From positions 1 through 45,739 of the IMG/VR virus record IMGVR_UViG_3300021389_000042: 45,739 bases of DNA; one strand, given 5' to 3'. The DNA is from a virus. Numbering within the stretch: the first letter of the stretch is position 1; each line of letters begins with the position of its first letter. Both the position numbers and the translations under genes were made by a program. Positions 172-6,920 of this stretch are shown in pieces. The notes beneath the pieces are model-generated. The model did not search any database. It was not told the origin of the DNA and was given only the letters and a program-made list of their open reading frames with translations.

Positions 172-639
172 ATGGCAAATATAGATAACGAATGTAAAGA
201 TCTAGAAGTACAAGACTTCTATGATAATTCAACAACACACTTAGAAGACATTATGACGCATCAAAAAGAGATGCAAGAAAAAACCTACGGGTTTAACTTT
301 GAAGATATGTCAATTAGAGAAGTAATGGACTTTTGGCATGTTAATACTCACGCAGTAGTTGATGAAATTCACGAAATGACTGATGCTTTAGGTGGTATCA
401 AAGATGGTTCTGGAAATGCAGTATGGAAATACTGGAAGAAAGACTTCTCAAAATATGAAACTATGAAAGTTTCAGATCTGTCAGATGACGATCGTAAAGA
501 ATTGTATATGGAATGGGTTGACATTCTACACTTCTTTATCAATTACGCAGCATCAATTGGCCTCGATGCAAAAACGGCTTATAACTACTACTTCGCAAAG
601 GCTGAAGAGAATAAGAACCGTCAAAAAAGAGGCTATTAA
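172..639 (+). CDS. dimeric all-alpha dUTPase / dCTPase (T4 gp56-like)
   Basis: This 155-residue protein resembles the all-alpha NTP pyrophosphatase superfamily (dimeric dUTPase, MazG), which hydrolyses dUTP to dUMP and pyrophosphate and keeps uracil out of phage DNA. The Mg-binding pattern is visible: an acidic helix around residues 63-72 (VDEIHEMTDAL) and a second around 113-120 (EWVDILHFF), followed by a helix with the YNYYFAKAEENKNRQKRGY ending typical of phage dUTPases. The family is established; the specific substrate (dUTP, dCTP or both) is inferred. The ATG is preceded by an A/T-rich leader. Its stop overlaps the polymerase start by one base (TAATG), which suggests translational coupling to DNA replication genes. 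Confidence 0.8.
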   Translation: MANIDNECKDLEVQDFYDNSTTHLEDIMTHQKEMQEKTYGFNFEDMSIREVMDFWHVNTHAVVDEIHEMTDALGGIKDGSGNAVWKYWKKDFSKYETMKVSDLSDDDRKELYMEWVDILHFFINYAASIGLDAKTAYNYYFAKAEENKNRQKRGY

Positions 640-2048
640 TGTTATTAGATATTGAACAAACCAATAAGGAATTAATAGTTTCTTATTATGACAAAGAAGG
701 TAAAGTTTCATTTAAGAGATATGGTGTAAATCAATTTCAAAACTGGGTCGTTACTAAAGAAACTGATAAGTATAAAGATAAGACATATAGAAATTGGGAT
801 GATCGGCCTTTAAAAAGAGGTATTGCTAAATCATTTAATAAATTTAGTTTACTTTATTTTATGGATTCTTTACCAGAAGCTGATAAAGAAGAGATATACG
901 AGTTTAACATGCCTCGAACATATTTCGTCGATATTGAAACAGAAATTATAGATGGTTTTCCAAAACCAGAAGAAGCCAAATCGCGCATTCTTACATTTTC
1001 AATTATTACACCAGAACGTAAAGCTATTGTATTAGGTTTAGAAGATCTTACATCTGAACAAATCAAGAAGATTGAAGAAGATACAAATAAGCATTTGAAA
1101 AACTATGATACTGATTGGGACTTCTCATATCATAAGTTTGATAATGAGTATAATATGCTGTATACATTTTTGCATAAGTTTTTACCTAAGTTCCCAATGA
1201 TGACAGGGTGGAATTTCATCAACTATGACTGGCAGTATATAGTCAATCGTTGTAAGAGATTACAAATCGACCTGACTGAGGTGGCTATCACTGGCCAACT
1301 TGACAGAAATGATAGTAGACCTCTTCATATGGGTATTTTAGATTATATGCAATTGTATGACAAATACGATAGATCAGTTGCGGTAAAAGAATCAAATTCA
1401 TTGGACTTTGTATCAGGTGCAGTTTTAGATGTTACCAAAATTAAATACACTGGTTCATTACAAGATCTTTATGAAAATGATTTTACAAAATATGTATATT
1501 ATAATGTAATTGATTCATGTCTAGTATATTATATTGATCAACAATTAAGATCTATGGAAGTTCTTTTAACCTTAGCAACTATTACTAGAATGCCACTATA
1601 TAAAGCAAGTTCTCCAGTAGCAATCACAGAATCTTTATTAGCTAGAAAATTAGCAGAAACAAATAAAAAAATAGGAGTAGAATATGGTAAAGCAGATTCT
1701 CTTAAAGATGGTAAATTTGAAGGTGCATTTGTAAAACAACCAATTGTAGGTTATTACACTGGAGTAAGTGCGTTTGACTTTGCATCGCTATATCCTTCAA
1801 TAATGAGACAATTTAACATTTCACCTGAATCTTTTATAGAACAAATTCCTCAAAATGAAATAAATGAAAGACGTAAAGATGAAAATGTTATCGTTTGTGA
1901 AAATGGAGTTGTATATAAAAAGGAAGATTCTATTCTTAAAAGAATTTTAAGTGATTTATATGCTCAACGTAAAGACTATAAAAAAACGTCTTATATGTAT
2001 TATGAAAAAGCATACGAACTAGAAAAAAAATTAAAAAATTTAACCTAA
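639..2048 (+). CDS. 43: DNA polymerase gp43, N-terminal part (exonuclease, palm motif A)
   Basis: This is the first part of a family B replicative DNA polymerase. The 3'-5' exonuclease motifs are visible: Exo I as FVDIETE, Exo II as GWNFINYDWQYIVNR, and Exo III as YYNVIDSCLV. Polymerase motif A is DFASLYPSIMRQFNISPESF, with its metal-binding Asp near residue 380. The protein stops at residue 469 within the fingers, after a charged helix ending KKLKNLT. Motifs B and C are absent here and occur in the separate gene at 5712-6920. The two parts add to 871 residues, close to intact T4 gp43 (about 900), so the parts look complementary rather than decayed. Function presumably needs non-covalent reassembly. 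No intein or endonuclease signature is present at the break. Confidence 0.93.
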   Translation: MLLDIEQTNKELIVSYYDKEGKVSFKRYGVNQFQNWVVTKETDKYKDKTYRNWDDRPLKRGIAKSFNKFSLLYFMDSLPEADKEEIYEFNMPRTYFVDIETEIIDGFPKPEEAKSRILTFSIITPERKAIVLGLEDLTSEQIKKIEEDTNKHLKNYDTDWDFSYHKFDNEYNMLYTFLHKFLPKFPMMTGWNFINYDWQYIVNRCKRLQIDLTEVAITGQLDRNDSRPLHMGILDYMQLYDKYDRSVAVKESNSLDFVSGAVLDVTKIKYTGSLQDLYENDFTKYVYYNVIDSCLVYYIDQQLRSMEVLLTLATITRMPLYKASSPVAITESLLARKLAETNKKIGVEYGKADSLKDGKFEGAFVKQPIVGYYTGVSAFDFASLYPSIMRQFNISPESFIEQIPQNEINERRKDENVIVCENGVVYKKEDSILKRILSDLYAQRKDYKKTSYMYYEKAYELEKKLKNLT

Positions 2049-2077
2049 AAAAAATAGAAAGACTGTAGAACAGACTT

Positions 2078-2090
2078 GATATATAATTAA
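2078..2090 (+). promoter_or_regulatory. late-type promoter motif before nrdB
   Basis: GATATATAATTAA matches the element that recurs before virion genes in this window. It lies 14 bases before the nrdB start, so an nrdB-nrdA transcript could begin here independently of the polymerase fragment upstream. The short distance to the ATG is a caveat. Confidence 0.45.
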
Positions 2091-2104
2091 ACAAAATACA
2101 TTAT

Positions 2105-3085
2105 ATGAACCAGAATATCTTCAAACCAAGAGTTAACATTTTACCATATGAGTATCCACAGTTATTAGCATATAAAGATGCTATTAGACATTCTTATTGG
2201 ATCCATACTGAGTTTAACTTTACCACAGATATTGATGATTTTAAAACAAAAATCAGTGATCAAGAACGTGAAGTTATTAAAAGAGCAATGTTAGCAATTG
2301 CACAAATTGAAGTAAACGTAAAGACTTTTTGGGCAGATCTTTATAAAAGAATGCCTATTACTGAAGTTGGTGATGTAGGTATGACTTTCGCAGAATCAGA
2401 AGTTAGACACAAAGATGCTTACGCTCAATTGCTTAGAGTTCTAGGTTTAGAAGAAGAATTTCAAAATGTAGTAGAGATTCCAGCAATTAAAGATAGAATT
2501 TCTTATTTAAAGAAATATTTGAACGGATCACGTAGTAAAGATGATAAAATGTACACGAAGTCTGTATTATTATTTTCGTTATTCATTGAACACGTGAGTC
2601 TTTTCAGTCAATTTTTAATTATGATGTCTTTCAACAAAGAAAAGAACTTATTTAAAGGTATTTCAAATGTTGTTGAAGCAACATCCAAAGAAGAAGAGAT
2701 TCATGGTAATTTCGGTTCAGAACTTATTAATATTATCAAAGTAGAAAATCCAGAGTGGTTCGATGAAGAATTCGAACAACTAATAGATTCTGCATGTAAA
2801 AAGGCATACGCAGCCGAAGTTAAAATTTTAGATTGGATTTTTGAAAACGGAGAATTAGAATTTCTCTCTAAGAAAACCATCGAAAATTTTATACAAAATA
2901 GGTTCAATAACTCATTAACACGTATCGGTATGAAACCTGTTTTTGACGTTGACTTCGCAGAGATTGAAAAAACCTTATGGTTTGATGTAGAGATCACTGC
3001 GACTAAAGAAGGTGATTTCTTTTATAAGAAACAAGTAGACTACAACAAAAAGAGTAAGTCAATCACCGAAGACGATTTATTTTAA
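2105..3085 (+). CDS. nrdB: ribonucleotide reductase class I, beta subunit
   Basis: NrdB carries the diiron-tyrosyl radical used by class I ribonucleotide reductase to make dNTPs from rNDPs. This 326-residue protein has the ferritin-like helices of R2. The ligand and radical pattern E-x-x-H-x3-Y is visible in ESEVRHKDAYAQLL, and a second ligand set in EEEIHGNFG (E-x2-H). The C-terminus ends EDDLF, the type of short tail that docks into NrdA. It is followed 25 bases later by nrdA. The gene order nrdB-nrdA and its location inside a disrupted polymerase gene are unusual for T4-like phages. Confidence 0.93.
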   Translation: MNQNIFKPRVNILPYEYPQLLAYKDAIRHSYWIHTEFNFTTDIDDFKTKISDQEREVIKRAMLAIAQIEVNVKTFWADLYKRMPITEVGDVGMTFAESEVRHKDAYAQLLRVLGLEEEFQNVVEIPAIKDRISYLKKYLNGSRSKDDKMYTKSVLLFSLFIEHVSLFSQFLIMMSFNKEKNLFKGISNVVEATSKEEEIHGNFGSELINIIKVENPEWFDEEFEQLIDSACKKAYAAEVKILDWIFENGELEFLSKKTIENFIQNRFNNSLTRIGMKPVFDVDFAEIEKTLWFDVEITATKEGDFFYKKQVDYNKKSKSITEDDLF

Positions 3086-3110
3086 CTAAAAAATTTAAAA
3101 AAATTATAAT

Positions 3111-4805
3111 ATGGAAAAAGCCGGAACAAATCTAGCAGAACTAAGCCATGATCTAACAATAGATGATGCAAAGGACTCTCAAGGGAGATCAAGATACTAT
3201 TGGTTAAATGATGATAGTAGATTATTCTTATCAAGAGGATATATTTCAGAATCACCCGAACAGAGAATTAAAGATATTGCTAATACTGCAGAAAAGTATT
3301 TAAAGATTGAAGGTTTTGCTAAAAAATTCGAAGACTATATGTCAAGAGGCTTTTATAGTATGTCCACTCCGGTTTGGATTAACTTTGGAAAGGACAAAGG
3401 ACTTCCAATCAGTTGTTATGGTTCAAATGTCGATGACACATTAGATAGTATCTTAAACGGAAGTAGAGAAATTGGAATGATGTCAAAATATGGTGGAGGA
3501 ACTTCCATTTATTTAGGTAATATTAGAGAAAGAGGCGCTACTATTTCTACAGGTGGAACAGCAGATGGTCCAGTTCACTATGCAAGAATGTATGACACTA
3601 CAGTTGATGTGTGTAAACAATCTGAAGCAAGACGTGGTGCATGCGCAGCGTGGTTGCCAGTAGAACATAATGACATCTTAGAGTTTTTAGATATTGGAAC
3701 AGAAGGTAACCCAATTCAAAATCTACAATATGGCGTTACAGTTACTGATCAATGGATTCAGGAAATGAAAGATGGTGATGCAGATAAACGTAAGATTTGG
3801 GCTAAAGTAATTCAAAGACGTAATGAGTTTGGATATCCTTACATTATGTTTAAAGATAATTCTAACAACAATTCACCATATAAAGAATTAGGTCTTGAAA
3901 TTACAGCTTCTAATTTATGTAGTGAGATTCAATTACCAACAGACAGTTTCAATTCATTCGTATGTTGTTTAGGTTCTATTAACCTATTGCACTGGGACGA
4001 GATTGTAGAAACAGACGCTATTGAAATCTACACACTGTTTTTAAATGCAGTGATGGACGAGTTTGTTAAAAAGTCTTATAATATGCCAGGAATGAAAAGA
4101 GCGCACCGCTTTGCGGAACAACATAGAGCACTTGGTCTAGGTGTATTAGGATATCATTCTCTATTTCAATCTAAATTAATTGAATTCGAATCGCTAGAAG
4201 CTAAACAATTAAACTATCAAATCTTTAAAACACTTAAAGAAAGAACAGAAAAAACTTCACAGTGGTTACACGACGAGAAGGGTATTACATCTTTAAGAGA
4301 AGGTTTTGCTAATACAACATTGGTAGCTATTGCACCTACTAAATCAAGTTCATTTATTCATGGTCAAGTTTCTATGGGTATTGAACCAATCAAGTCTAAC
4401 TACTTTATTAAGGATTTGGCTAAATCTAAAACTATTTATAAGAATCCATTTTTAGAAACAGAACTTGAGAAATATGACTTAAATACACCTGAAGTATGGG
4501 AAGATATTTTAAAGAAGGACGGTTCAGTTCAGCATTTAGATTTTCCAACTAAAGCGGTCTTTAAGTCATTTATTGAAATTAGTCCAAGTGAATTAATTTT
4601 ACAAGCAGGACAAAGACAACAATTTATTGATCAATCGCAATCTTTGAATTTAATGATCCACCCATCTGTGCCAGCAAAAGATATTAATAAACTTTATTTG
4701 AATGCACATGAATCGGGAGTTAAAACTCTATACTATCAATTTAGTCAAAGTTCAGCACAATCATTTGCAAGAGATATTCTAGAATGTGCGAGTTGTGAAG
4801 GATAA
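3111..4805 (+). CDS. nrdA: ribonucleotide reductase class I, alpha subunit
   Basis: NrdA is the catalytic subunit reducing ribonucleotides with NrdB. The catalytic residues are visible: the redox Cys in PISCYGSNVDDTL, the N-x-C-x-E motif in ASNLCSEIQLP, the second redox Cys in CCLGSINLL, the radical-transfer tyrosine pair in KTLYYQFSQSS, and the C-terminal shuttle cysteines in CASCEG. At 564 residues it is much shorter than E. coli or T4 NrdA (about 750-760). The N-terminus begins almost directly with the substrate-binding region, so the ATP-cone that mediates dATP feedback is missing. A likely consequence (inference) is an enzyme not shut down by dATP. It ends just before a hairpin-rich segment and terminator. 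Confidence 0.93.
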   Translation: MEKAGTNLAELSHDLTIDDAKDSQGRSRYYWLNDDSRLFLSRGYISESPEQRIKDIANTAEKYLKIEGFAKKFEDYMSRGFYSMSTPVWINFGKDKGLPISCYGSNVDDTLDSILNGSREIGMMSKYGGGTSIYLGNIRERGATISTGGTADGPVHYARMYDTTVDVCKQSEARRGACAAWLPVEHNDILEFLDIGTEGNPIQNLQYGVTVTDQWIQEMKDGDADKRKIWAKVIQRRNEFGYPYIMFKDNSNNNSPYKELGLEITASNLCSEIQLPTDSFNSFVCCLGSINLLHWDEIVETDAIEIYTLFLNAVMDEFVKKSYNMPGMKRAHRFAEQHRALGLGVLGYHSLFQSKLIEFESLEAKQLNYQIFKTLKERTEKTSQWLHDEKGITSLREGFANTTLVAIAPTKSSSFIHGQVSMGIEPIKSNYFIKDLAKSKTIYKNPFLETELEKYDLNTPEVWEDILKKDGSVQHLDFPTKAVFKSFIEISPSELILQAGQRQQFIDQSQSLNLMIHPSVPAKDINKLYLNAHESGVKTLYYQFSQSSAQSFARDILECASCEG

Positions 4806-4806
4806 A

Positions 4807-4854
4807 GGTGTGGTTTGAAGACCACGTCTTAGGACCGTTATAGTTAACGGGTTG
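4807..4854 (+). ncRNA. hairpin-rich RNA segment downstream of nrdA
   Basis: Two hairpins stand between the nrdA stop and the terminator. The first pairs 4810-4814 (GTGGT) with 4821-4825 (ACCAC). The second pairs 4835-4840 (CCGTTA) with 4845-4850 (TAACGG) around a TAGT loop. The loop of the first (AAG, 4818-4820) can also pair with CTT at 4828-4830, allowing a small pseudoknot, or AAGAC/GTCTT could form a competing hairpin. The segment is richer in G+C than its surroundings and encodes no protein. It could be a small RNA, a regulatory 3' UTR or a stabilising structure. The structure is read by eye and was not computed. Confidence 0.4.
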
Positions 4855-4892
4855 GGCAGAGAAAGTTCGCTACTATCTCTGCCTTTTTTTTT
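4855..4892 (+). terminator. intrinsic terminator after nrdBA
   Basis: The perfect 8-bp stem GGCAGAGA (4855-4862) / TCTCTGCC (4876-4883) can be extended inside by AGT/ACT, and is followed by nine T residues. It closes the nrdB-nrdA transcript and separates it from the clamp and second polymerase gene. Confidence 0.85.
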
Positions 4893-4928
4893 GCTTCATT
4901 TTTAATGAAACTATTCCACAGATCTCTG

Positions 4929-4934
4929 TATAAT
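4929..4934 (+). promoter_or_regulatory. TATAAT -10 element before the clamp gene
   Basis: TATAAT lies 30 bases before the chosen clamp start and just after a strong terminator, so a new transcript is needed here. It could drive the clamp and the C-terminal polymerase part together. No certain -35 is visible. Confidence 0.45.
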
Positions 4935-4964
4935 ATTCAAATATCATTATCTAAAAATAAATTT

Positions 4965-5708
4965 ATGAAATTACAAATCGATCGTATTGATCAACATGCA
5001 TTAACAGAGTTTATCAATCGTGTTAAACTCATTGACTCTTTTATTTATATGAAAATTAAAGATGGTCAAATCCAATCAACAGTTTATCTTCCACAACGAG
5101 ATGCTGTAAAACATCACTCTATTCAAGCTGACACTATCTTCCAAGTAAGTGAATGGCCTGACACTGACAAAGAAATGAAAATTGCATTTTTTGAAGGTAG
5201 TAAAGTTATTGAAGCAATTAAGCACTTTGAACACGATGCAATTAAAGGTGAATTGGAATTTATCGAAAATGATGAAGAATTCGTAGCATCAACATTGCGT
5301 ATTTTTAATGACGAATTAGAAATTACACTTTCATGTTCTGAGCCTTCTTTAGGATTTAAAGATCTTTCACAAGATCAACGCGATGCTATCTTTGCTCGCT
5401 CTGATGCTAAATTTGATTTTACATTGGATACACATTCAATCGGTAAAGTTAAGAATCTTTTTTCACTTGACAAAGATGAAACATTTGGTATTAATTCAGA
5501 TGTACAAGGCATTAACGTTAATGGTAAATCATTTAATGTAGTACTTACACCAGATACAAGTGGTAATGGTAACGTTACTGTTTATAAAAAATATCTAAAT
5601 TTATTAGACAAGGAAGAGCAAACGGTTTATGTGTCAGATTCTAAAGTTGTATTCGAATCAAACGATTCACATACTTTATTGACAATTTCAACCTGCCAAA
5701 CTGCCTAA
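4965..5708 (+). CDS. 45: sliding clamp (DNA polymerase processivity factor)
   Basis: This is probably the T4 gp45-type trimeric sliding clamp, which holds the polymerase on DNA and in T4 also activates late transcription with gp33 and gp55. From the ATG at 4965 it is 247 residues (T4: 228), beginning MKLQIDRIDQHALTEFI, with alternating strands and helices and the acidic surface expected of a clamp. I prefer this start over an in-frame ATG at 4905, because 4905 lies close to the terminator and upstream of the TATAAT element, and 4965 has an A-rich leader. Sequence identity to T4 gp45 is low by eye. The call leans on size, fold pattern and its position 3 bases before a polymerase gene. Confidence 0.7.
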   Translation: MKLQIDRIDQHALTEFINRVKLIDSFIYMKIKDGQIQSTVYLPQRDAVKHHSIQADTIFQVSEWPDTDKEMKIAFFEGSKVIEAIKHFEHDAIKGELEFIENDEEFVASTLRIFNDELEITLSCSEPSLGFKDLSQDQRDAIFARSDAKFDFTLDTHSIGKVKNLFSLDKDETFGINSDVQGINVNGKSFNVVLTPDTSGNGNVTVYKKYLNLLDKEEQTVYVSDSKVVFESNDSHTLLTISTCQTA

Positions 5709-5711
5709 TAT

Positions 5712-6920
5712 ATGAATATCGAAGAGTTAGAAAATAAATCAATTGATCAACTCACAGATGATGAGGCGAAGCTGCTTGTAGATCACTACAAGCAGCTTTC
5801 TGCCAAATACACTGCATACGAACAAGCTGTTAAATTAACTCTTAACTCTATCTACGGAGCATTTGGTAATAAGTGGTTCCACTTTTTCAATCTCGATATT
5901 GCTGAATCAATTACCAAACAAGGTAAAAATGCTATTCTTTATTCAGAAACAATTCTTAACAAATATGTTAATGATTTTTGGCACAAAGATACGGCAGTTC
6001 ATGAACAATTTGGTATTAAAGTAAAGGGTAAAATTGAAAAACCTGCCGTAATTTATATTGATACTGATTCTTGTTATGTACAGTTTCAGGATTTATATGA
6101 ATCTATCATTTGGAATGATGAAGATAAAAAATTAAAAATTGATGAGTTTATTCTTGCTTTTTATGCCTTTAGATTAAAGGATTACATTGCAAAATGTATG
6201 GAAAAATATGCAGAGAAAAGAAACACTGATAATTTCCTTATATTTGAACTCGAATCATTGGCATACAATGGTATTTGGATGAGTAAGAAAAAATACATTC
6301 AAAATATTGCATGGGATGATAAATTAGAAGTTACAGATCGTCACCCATCATTAAAGAAGGTAAAAACAATCGGCTTTGATACTATTCAATCTTCTACTCC
6401 AAAATTTGCTAGAGAAAAATTAGTAGAAGCTCTTAGAATTTTATTTAATTCAGAAGTTCAGCCCACTGCAAATGAGTTACAAGAATTGGTTGAATTTATG
6501 AAGCAATGTAAAAAAGAATTTAAATTAGCAGATATAGGTGACATATCTTTTAATAAAAGAACCAATAACATTGATAAGTATATTATCGATGATCAAGAAG
6601 AATTACAAATTGGTCTAAAATGTCCAGCTAATGTAAAAGCAGCTGGCTACTATAATTATATTTTAAATAATAATAAAAAATATAAAAACAAGTATAAACA
6701 CATTTCAAATGGTGAAAAATTAAAAATATACAATTGCATAGGAACTATTAGTGAGGTGTACGCATTTATGCCTAACGAATACCCATATGAAATTGCACCA
6801 AAAGTTGATTACGATACACAATTTGAAAAAGCAATGATCGATCCACTCAATAGAGTATTAACAGCAATCGGTCTACAAACACTAGATACTAACCTGATCT
6901 ACGCATCAGCATTATTTTAA
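5712..6920 (+). CDS. 43: DNA polymerase gp43, C-terminal part (palm motifs B, C, thumb)
   Basis: This is the second part of the family B polymerase. After about 40 residues of fingers helix it has motif B as KLTLNSIYGAFGNKWFHFF (Lys41, Asn45) and motif C as IYIDTDSCYV with the two catalytic Asp residues near residue 117. A thumb-like region follows, with a short hydrophobic C-terminus (LIYASALF) that could bind the clamp. The exonuclease and motif A are in the gene at 639-2048, 3.66 kb upstream. It starts with its own ATG 3 bases after the clamp stop, so clamp and this part are probably translated together. The first 30 residues (acidic, TDDEAK) may be newly acquired. Confidence 0.93.
   Translation: MNIEELENKSIDQLTDDEAKLLVDHYKQLSAKYTAYEQAVKLTLNSIYGAFGNKWFHFFNLDIAESITKQGKNAILYSETILNKYVNDFWHKDTAVHEQFGIKVKGKIEKPAVIYIDTDSCYVQFQDLYESIIWNDEDKKLKIDEFILAFYAFRLKDYIAKCMEKYAEKRNTDNFLIFELESLAYNGIWMSKKKYIQNIAWDDKLEVTDRHPSLKKVKTIGFDTIQSSTPKFAREKLVEALRILFNSEVQPTANELQELVEFMKQCKKEFKLADIGDISFNKRTNNIDKYIIDDQEELQIGLKCPANVKAAGYYNYILNNNKKYKNKYKHISNGEKLKIYNCIGTISEVYAFMPNEYPYEIAPKVDYDTQFEKAMIDPLNRVLTAIGLQTLDTNLIYASALF

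Follow-up and report, generated by a model that had tools for sequence, protein, structure and literature searches.

In this study, we analyzed a 45,739-nt stretch of viral DNA (IMG/VR virus record IMGVR_UViG_3300021389_000042, hereafter called the window and taken at its full length). Positions 639-6920 contain five genes in the same direction (+ strand), encoding the N-terminal half of a DNA polymerase (N-half, gene polN), the ribonucleotide reductase subunits NrdB and NrdA, a sliding clamp, and the C-terminal half of the polymerase (C-half, gene polC). We consider it very likely (probability of about 0.85) that the two outer genes encode a two-chain, heterodimeric replicative polymerase of the T4-type family B, split a long time ago. 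To our knowledge, split T4-type phage polymerases are known mainly in association with mobile elements, in a few Aeromonas phages. A split gp43 is not new as a kind; what appears to be new is how old and widespread the split is, that a clamp is conserved within the gap, that the nrd cassette can be exchanged, and that the fingertip was chosen repeatedly as breaking point.

The N-half open reading frame (ORF) (639..2048, 469 residues) comprises the exonuclease domain, palm motif A and the first fingers helix (PF03104, PF00136). The C-half ORF (5712..6920, 402 residues) comprises the second fingers helix with motif B, palm motif C, the thumb and a C-terminal LF tail, and also matched PF00136, which brings the sum to 871 residues. 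The catalytic motifs are split cleanly, as the exonuclease motifs and motif A (Asp D380, 89 residues ahead of the N-half end) are in the N-half, and motif B (Lys K41) and motif C (DTD, 117-119) in the C-half. Residues Y115, D117, T118, D119 and S120 of motif C are invariant across divergent relatives. All exonuclease and palm motifs of a T4-type family-B polymerase (gp43), with the catalytic Asp and Lys, are therefore present over the two proteins. In PHROG, the halves matched two separate families (phrog_2062 for the N-half, E 3.8e-80; phrog_1918 for the C-half, E 7.5e-72), which shows that reference phages already include such half-polymerases. A search for near-identical DNA among phages gave no match to the window.

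The alignment with RB69 gp43 covered residues 84-488 for the N-half (residue 452 facing 488) and 555-818 for the C-half (residues 36-40 facing 555-559). Because the N-half stops after residue 488 and the C-half aligns from 555-559, the break is located in the fingers. With a second T4-type entry (9e5y), the aligned part of the N-half reached 491 and that of the C-half began at 539. About 20 residues follow the last conserved block of the N-half, and the C-half starts with its own ATG about 40 residues ahead of motif B. The ORF coordinates, residue counts, motif distances and fingertip position proposed in an initial annotation of the window, made from the letters alone, were thus right.

The order polN-nrdB-nrdA-clamp-polC was identical in about 60 distinct IMG/VR contigs, with a C-half identity of 66-100%. 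Both halves are under strong purifying selection, with ratios of nonsynonymous to synonymous substitution of 0.03-0.09 where synonymous change was unsaturated, and the polN and polC trees are broadly concordant. In ten relatives of 119-212 kb, no PF00136 match was found elsewhere than in the two halves; this lack of an intact family-B polymerase is a strong but not a final argument, since IMG/VR classes these records as linear, and often as fragments. As the window comes from metagenomic data (a virus record of 45.7 kb), one could suspect an assembly artefact or a decayed pseudogene. We regard this as practically refuted, because the same architecture recurs in independent contigs, a similar one is found in cultured phages, and purifying selection on both halves is strong. 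The initial annotation had proposed to look for the same break in related genomes and had considered a misassembly or an intact polymerase hidden elsewhere: the break was found in these contigs and in cultured phages, and both suspicions are ruled out within the limits of the data.

The same two-part polymerase, with the clamp gene between its halves, is present in the cultured phages Sphingomonas PAU, Chryseobacterium MA9V-1, Tenacibaculum pT24, and PTm1, whose annotations list two or three "DNA polymerase" genes for it. In PTm1, one extra gene separates the clamp from the C-half. The clamp is also between the halves in the uncultured phage LR756500 (462 kb), which has polN, nrdA pieces, the clamp and the C-half in the order of the window. 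The fingertip split is common to Lak megaphages and uncultured phages of 460-640 kb; a distance of more than 100 kb separates the halves, located on opposite strands, in LR756502 and LR756504 (636-642 kb) as well as in Lak-A2. In a polymerase tree of 43 sequences, 18 split members and a single intact relative, Flavobacterium phage MaF61, formed one group (100/100), which holds the window and the four cultured phages. A single origin of the split is allowed, since a tree in which the 18 split phages were constrained together without MaF61 was not rejected by the approximately unbiased (AU) test (p-AU 0.13). The simplest reading of these sequences is one old split in the ancestor of this clade of jumbo and huge phages. 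The split thus appears to be an old and stable lineage trait, shared by a large clade of giant phages that ranges from cultured jumbo phages to Lak megaphages, and annotators of giant phage genomes should expect two or three polymerase genes. Also, since MA9V-1 and PAU are cultured, they allow direct tests of how a natural two-chain polymerase assembles and in what stoichiometry.

Two points weigh against this interpretation. In the best tree, the intact polymerase of MaF61 stands on a long branch within the split clade, a position that may reflect either a second split or a single re-fusion. The AlphaFold single-chain model of the C-half was poor (predicted local distance difference test, pLDDT, of 52), so the completion of the fingers domain is not visible in it.

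The comparison with the gp43A/gp43B fingertip split of Aeromonas phages, already made in the initial annotation, holds by alignment with the 44RR halves. As in the window, phages 25 and 44RR2.8t (Biquartavirus) have a T4-type family-B polymerase cut at the fingertip into separate chains, with no intein. However, the halves are adjacent with a short spacer in 44RR, and the split of phage 25 goes along with a seg endonuclease, whereas 3,663 bases with the clamp and the nrd cassette lie between them in the window. A common origin with the 44RR split was rejected by the AU test (p-AU 4e-6), as was a common origin with the split of a marine contig, L357 (p 2e-60). This contig (L357:4572-7441) belongs to a marine T4-like phage, whose fingertip-split halves are 210 bases apart. 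According to the trees, the same structural position was thus split independently at least twice more (44RR, L357). Given at least three independent breaks there, the fingertip seems to be a site where family-B polymerases tolerate a cut. The split PolB3 of Methanobacteriales, an archaeal family-B polymerase encoded by two genes for which an origin by erratic intein excision was proposed (PMC4104785), resembles that of the window in its two-gene organization but is a separate event. We found no publication describing the fingertip split as a clade trait, in a search where Kawato 2020 (on the PTm1 genome) and Petrov 2010 were covered only through other publications or the GenBank entry.

Replicative family-B polymerases in pieces are also known from split-intein fractured genes (Nanoarchaeum PolB, PTm1 ORF-239/241, PolB16 OarG), but the pieces there bear intein halves, which allow ligation, whereas no such halves were found in the window. 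The possibility that the two halves are covalently joined by trans-splicing, through a split intein or intron across the fingertip break, deserves attention because trans-splicing probably exists in this clade: PTm1, LR756500 and Lak-A2 have split inteins at motif C of this same gene. There, the C-half is cut a second time (DTD/S), with an intein half on each side and Ser as the first intein residue. In the PTm1 GenBank entry, the motif-C pieces are named intein-containing split DNA polymerase precursor, and a VSR endonuclease adjoins. The polymerase is encoded by three genes at these loci (L167:15401-18813 for LR756500, L172:7908-10056 for Lak-A2, L255:10309-13148 for PTm1). At the fingertip break, however, no IntN was found after the N-half and no IntC before the C-half; intein blocks are missing on either side, the tails are similar in all relatives, and the C-half has its own ATG. 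Also, no Rfam intron was found in the window, which is without the second break at motif C. Joining across the fingertip is consequently very improbable. Judging from the sequences, trans-splicing is able to mend the motif-C break, and the fingertip break is intein-free, so that the two kinds of break are distinct.

We thus propose that the polymerase works as two chains. Chain A would provide proofreading and that half of the palm which contains motif A, and chain B would carry motif B, motif C, the thumb and a clamp-binding tail. Because only a solvent-exposed fingertip loop is broken, the chains could assemble without a peptide bond, through the native contacts of palm, exonuclease domain and thumb, in an RB69-like arrangement with the fingertip left open. 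Such an assembly is likely by analogy with Aeromonas phage 25, whose split 43A and 43B co-purify and show polymerase activity, as reported by Petrov 2010 according to PMC2988022. By analogy with the T4 family, the clamp would be bound through the C-terminal LF tail of chain B. As for the history of the locus, the clamp gene would have been placed ahead of the C-half early and been retained there in most lineages, and other genes, including exchangeable nrdBA cassettes, would have ended up in the gap between the halves.

Two hypotheses on the event at the origin of the break are compatible with a two-chain polymerase. According to the first, a homing endonuclease or intein split the gene and was then lost, and a later rearrangement brought the clamp and nrd genes into the gap. 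In Aeromonas phage 25, the split gene 43 has a seg-type endonuclease associated with it (PMC2988022), and PTm1 has its VSR-type endonuclease beside the motif-C split intein. However, that intein occupies another site, the fingertip break showed no remnant of an endonuclease or intein in any relative examined, and Aeromonas 44RR has the same break without endonuclease. Neither an endonuclease nor an intein was found in the 3,663-base interruption of the window, and by inspection neither was seen among the intervening ORFs of 14 relatives, no search of family libraries having been made for them. The endonuclease-driven origin put forward in the initial annotation is thus unsupported, and we hold it to be possible but doubtful. 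The second scenario, a tandem duplication of a clamp-polymerase block (43-45-43) followed by complementary loss of halves, directly explains the clamp between the halves in five distant lineages. On the other hand, no overlapping remnant is present, and the two tails together amount to about one long fingertip loop; such remnants could be gone because the event is old. We give this duplication the same limited credence as the lost endonuclease.

The nrd cassette was ruled out as the cause of the split. Unlike in the window, the gap of PAU, MA9V-1, pT24 and PTm1 contains other genes, with no nrd detectable between the halves, and the tree of the nrd genes disagrees with that of polymerase and clamp (p-AU 3e-45). 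Two unrelated types of the cassette occupy the same slot. Among close relatives, the window type shows 87-100% identity. The other type has an identity to it of about 30% (NrdB) and 40% (NrdA), against 66-89% for the polymerase halves on either side. We also observed a window-type nrdBA cassette within a diverged polymerase background (L074:5424-8255), where the polymerase halves are 73-78% identical to those of the window and nrdB and nrdA 93 and 89%, respectively. Given these identities and the conflict between trees, the nrdBA cassette has been exchanged in place, after the split. Of the nrd recombination suggested in the initial annotation as an origin of the break, the recombination of the cassette is retained and its causal role is not.

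The interruption consists of nrdB, nrdA, a structured RNA with a terminator, and the clamp gene, so that the content first attributed to it, without endonuclease or intein, was confirmed. NrdB (2105..3085, PF00268, E 4e-58) is a member of the small-subunit family and NrdA (3111..4805, 564 residues, PF02867, E 3e-95) has the large-subunit barrel domain, as in class I ribonucleotide reductases. The clamp (4965..5708, with a possible ORF start at 4905) had no Pfam or PHROG match, and its PDB matches by sequence were insignificant. Its AlphaFold model (pLDDT 80) gave PCNA as top Foldseek matches in the PDB (E 6e-11, template modelling score 0.6-0.7), and the model thus identifies the gene before the C-half as a sliding clamp of the gp45/PCNA fold, of about 245 residues. 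In the relatives examined, the clamp stop and the C-half ATG are within a few bases of each other, which bears out the coupling of these two genes supposed at first.

The late-type motif announced at 2078 was identified as GATATATA (2078..2085), 20 nt upstream of nrdB. There are 14 copies in the window against 4.6 expected, spanning 2078 to 40282. Since all are on the + strand and mostly directly ahead of structural genes, GATATATA is probably the late promoter motif of this phage. A similar motif is present in the polN-nrdB gap of most relatives compared. A second promoter-like motif, TATAATATTCAAA, is located upstream of the clamp gene (4929..4941) and kept in close relatives; it follows the pattern TATAATATNNAAA, found 4 times in the window against 0.4 expected. 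Separate transcripts for the two halves, taken as certain in the initial annotation, are plausible, and separate expression is likely. One may go further and see the split as a maintained regulatory design rather than a scar: the proofreading half would be made with the early nucleotide genes, and the catalytic half would appear only together with the clamp, downstream of a separate promoter and of the RNA and terminator closing the nrdBA unit. Replisome assembly would then be tied to clamp supply, but we judge this extension unlikely.

The RNA located after nrdA (4806..4892) has three hairpins, with invariant UUAGGACCG and, in a loop, GUUCGCUACU. It ends with a terminator-like hairpin (4855-4880) and a T9 run, which corresponds to the terminator noted initially; a simple terminator scan omitted this hairpin, whose loop is longer than the limit of the scan. 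Among the predicted pairs, 12/18 and 11/15 in two RNA sub-types showed changes on both sides. The RNA had no match above the gathering score in Rfam 15, and its core pattern was found in at least 120 viral stretches. Of about 112 cases, 58 had nrdA directly upstream, and the others had unrelated genes there. The RNA thus belongs to a phage RNA family that is widespread, shows covariation and has no entry in Rfam. No copy was found by blastn in a collection of cultured phages, the 3 matches in bacterial genomes are no more than chance by a rough estimate, and a literature search by the motif gave no relevant publication among those listed. Since it is found after both nrdA types (L035:8578-8685 and window:4795-4900 are 94% identical over 52 bases, their NrdA about 42%), the RNA seems to be older or more mobile than the nrd cassette. 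From this sequence identity, it may serve as a homology or recombination joint for the exchange of the cassette.

The cargo ORFs in the nrdA-clamp gap of the relatives are variable. Those in the gaps of L030 (7225-9256) and L063 (8134-9266) include, by inspection, a nucleotidyltransferase of the CCA-adding-like type and a protein resembling phosphoglycerate dehydrogenase. Upstream of the N-half, the window encodes a MazG-like nucleotide pyrophosphohydrolase (172..639, + strand, phrog_173, E 1.8e-13), whose stop codon overlaps the N-half ATG by 1 nt.

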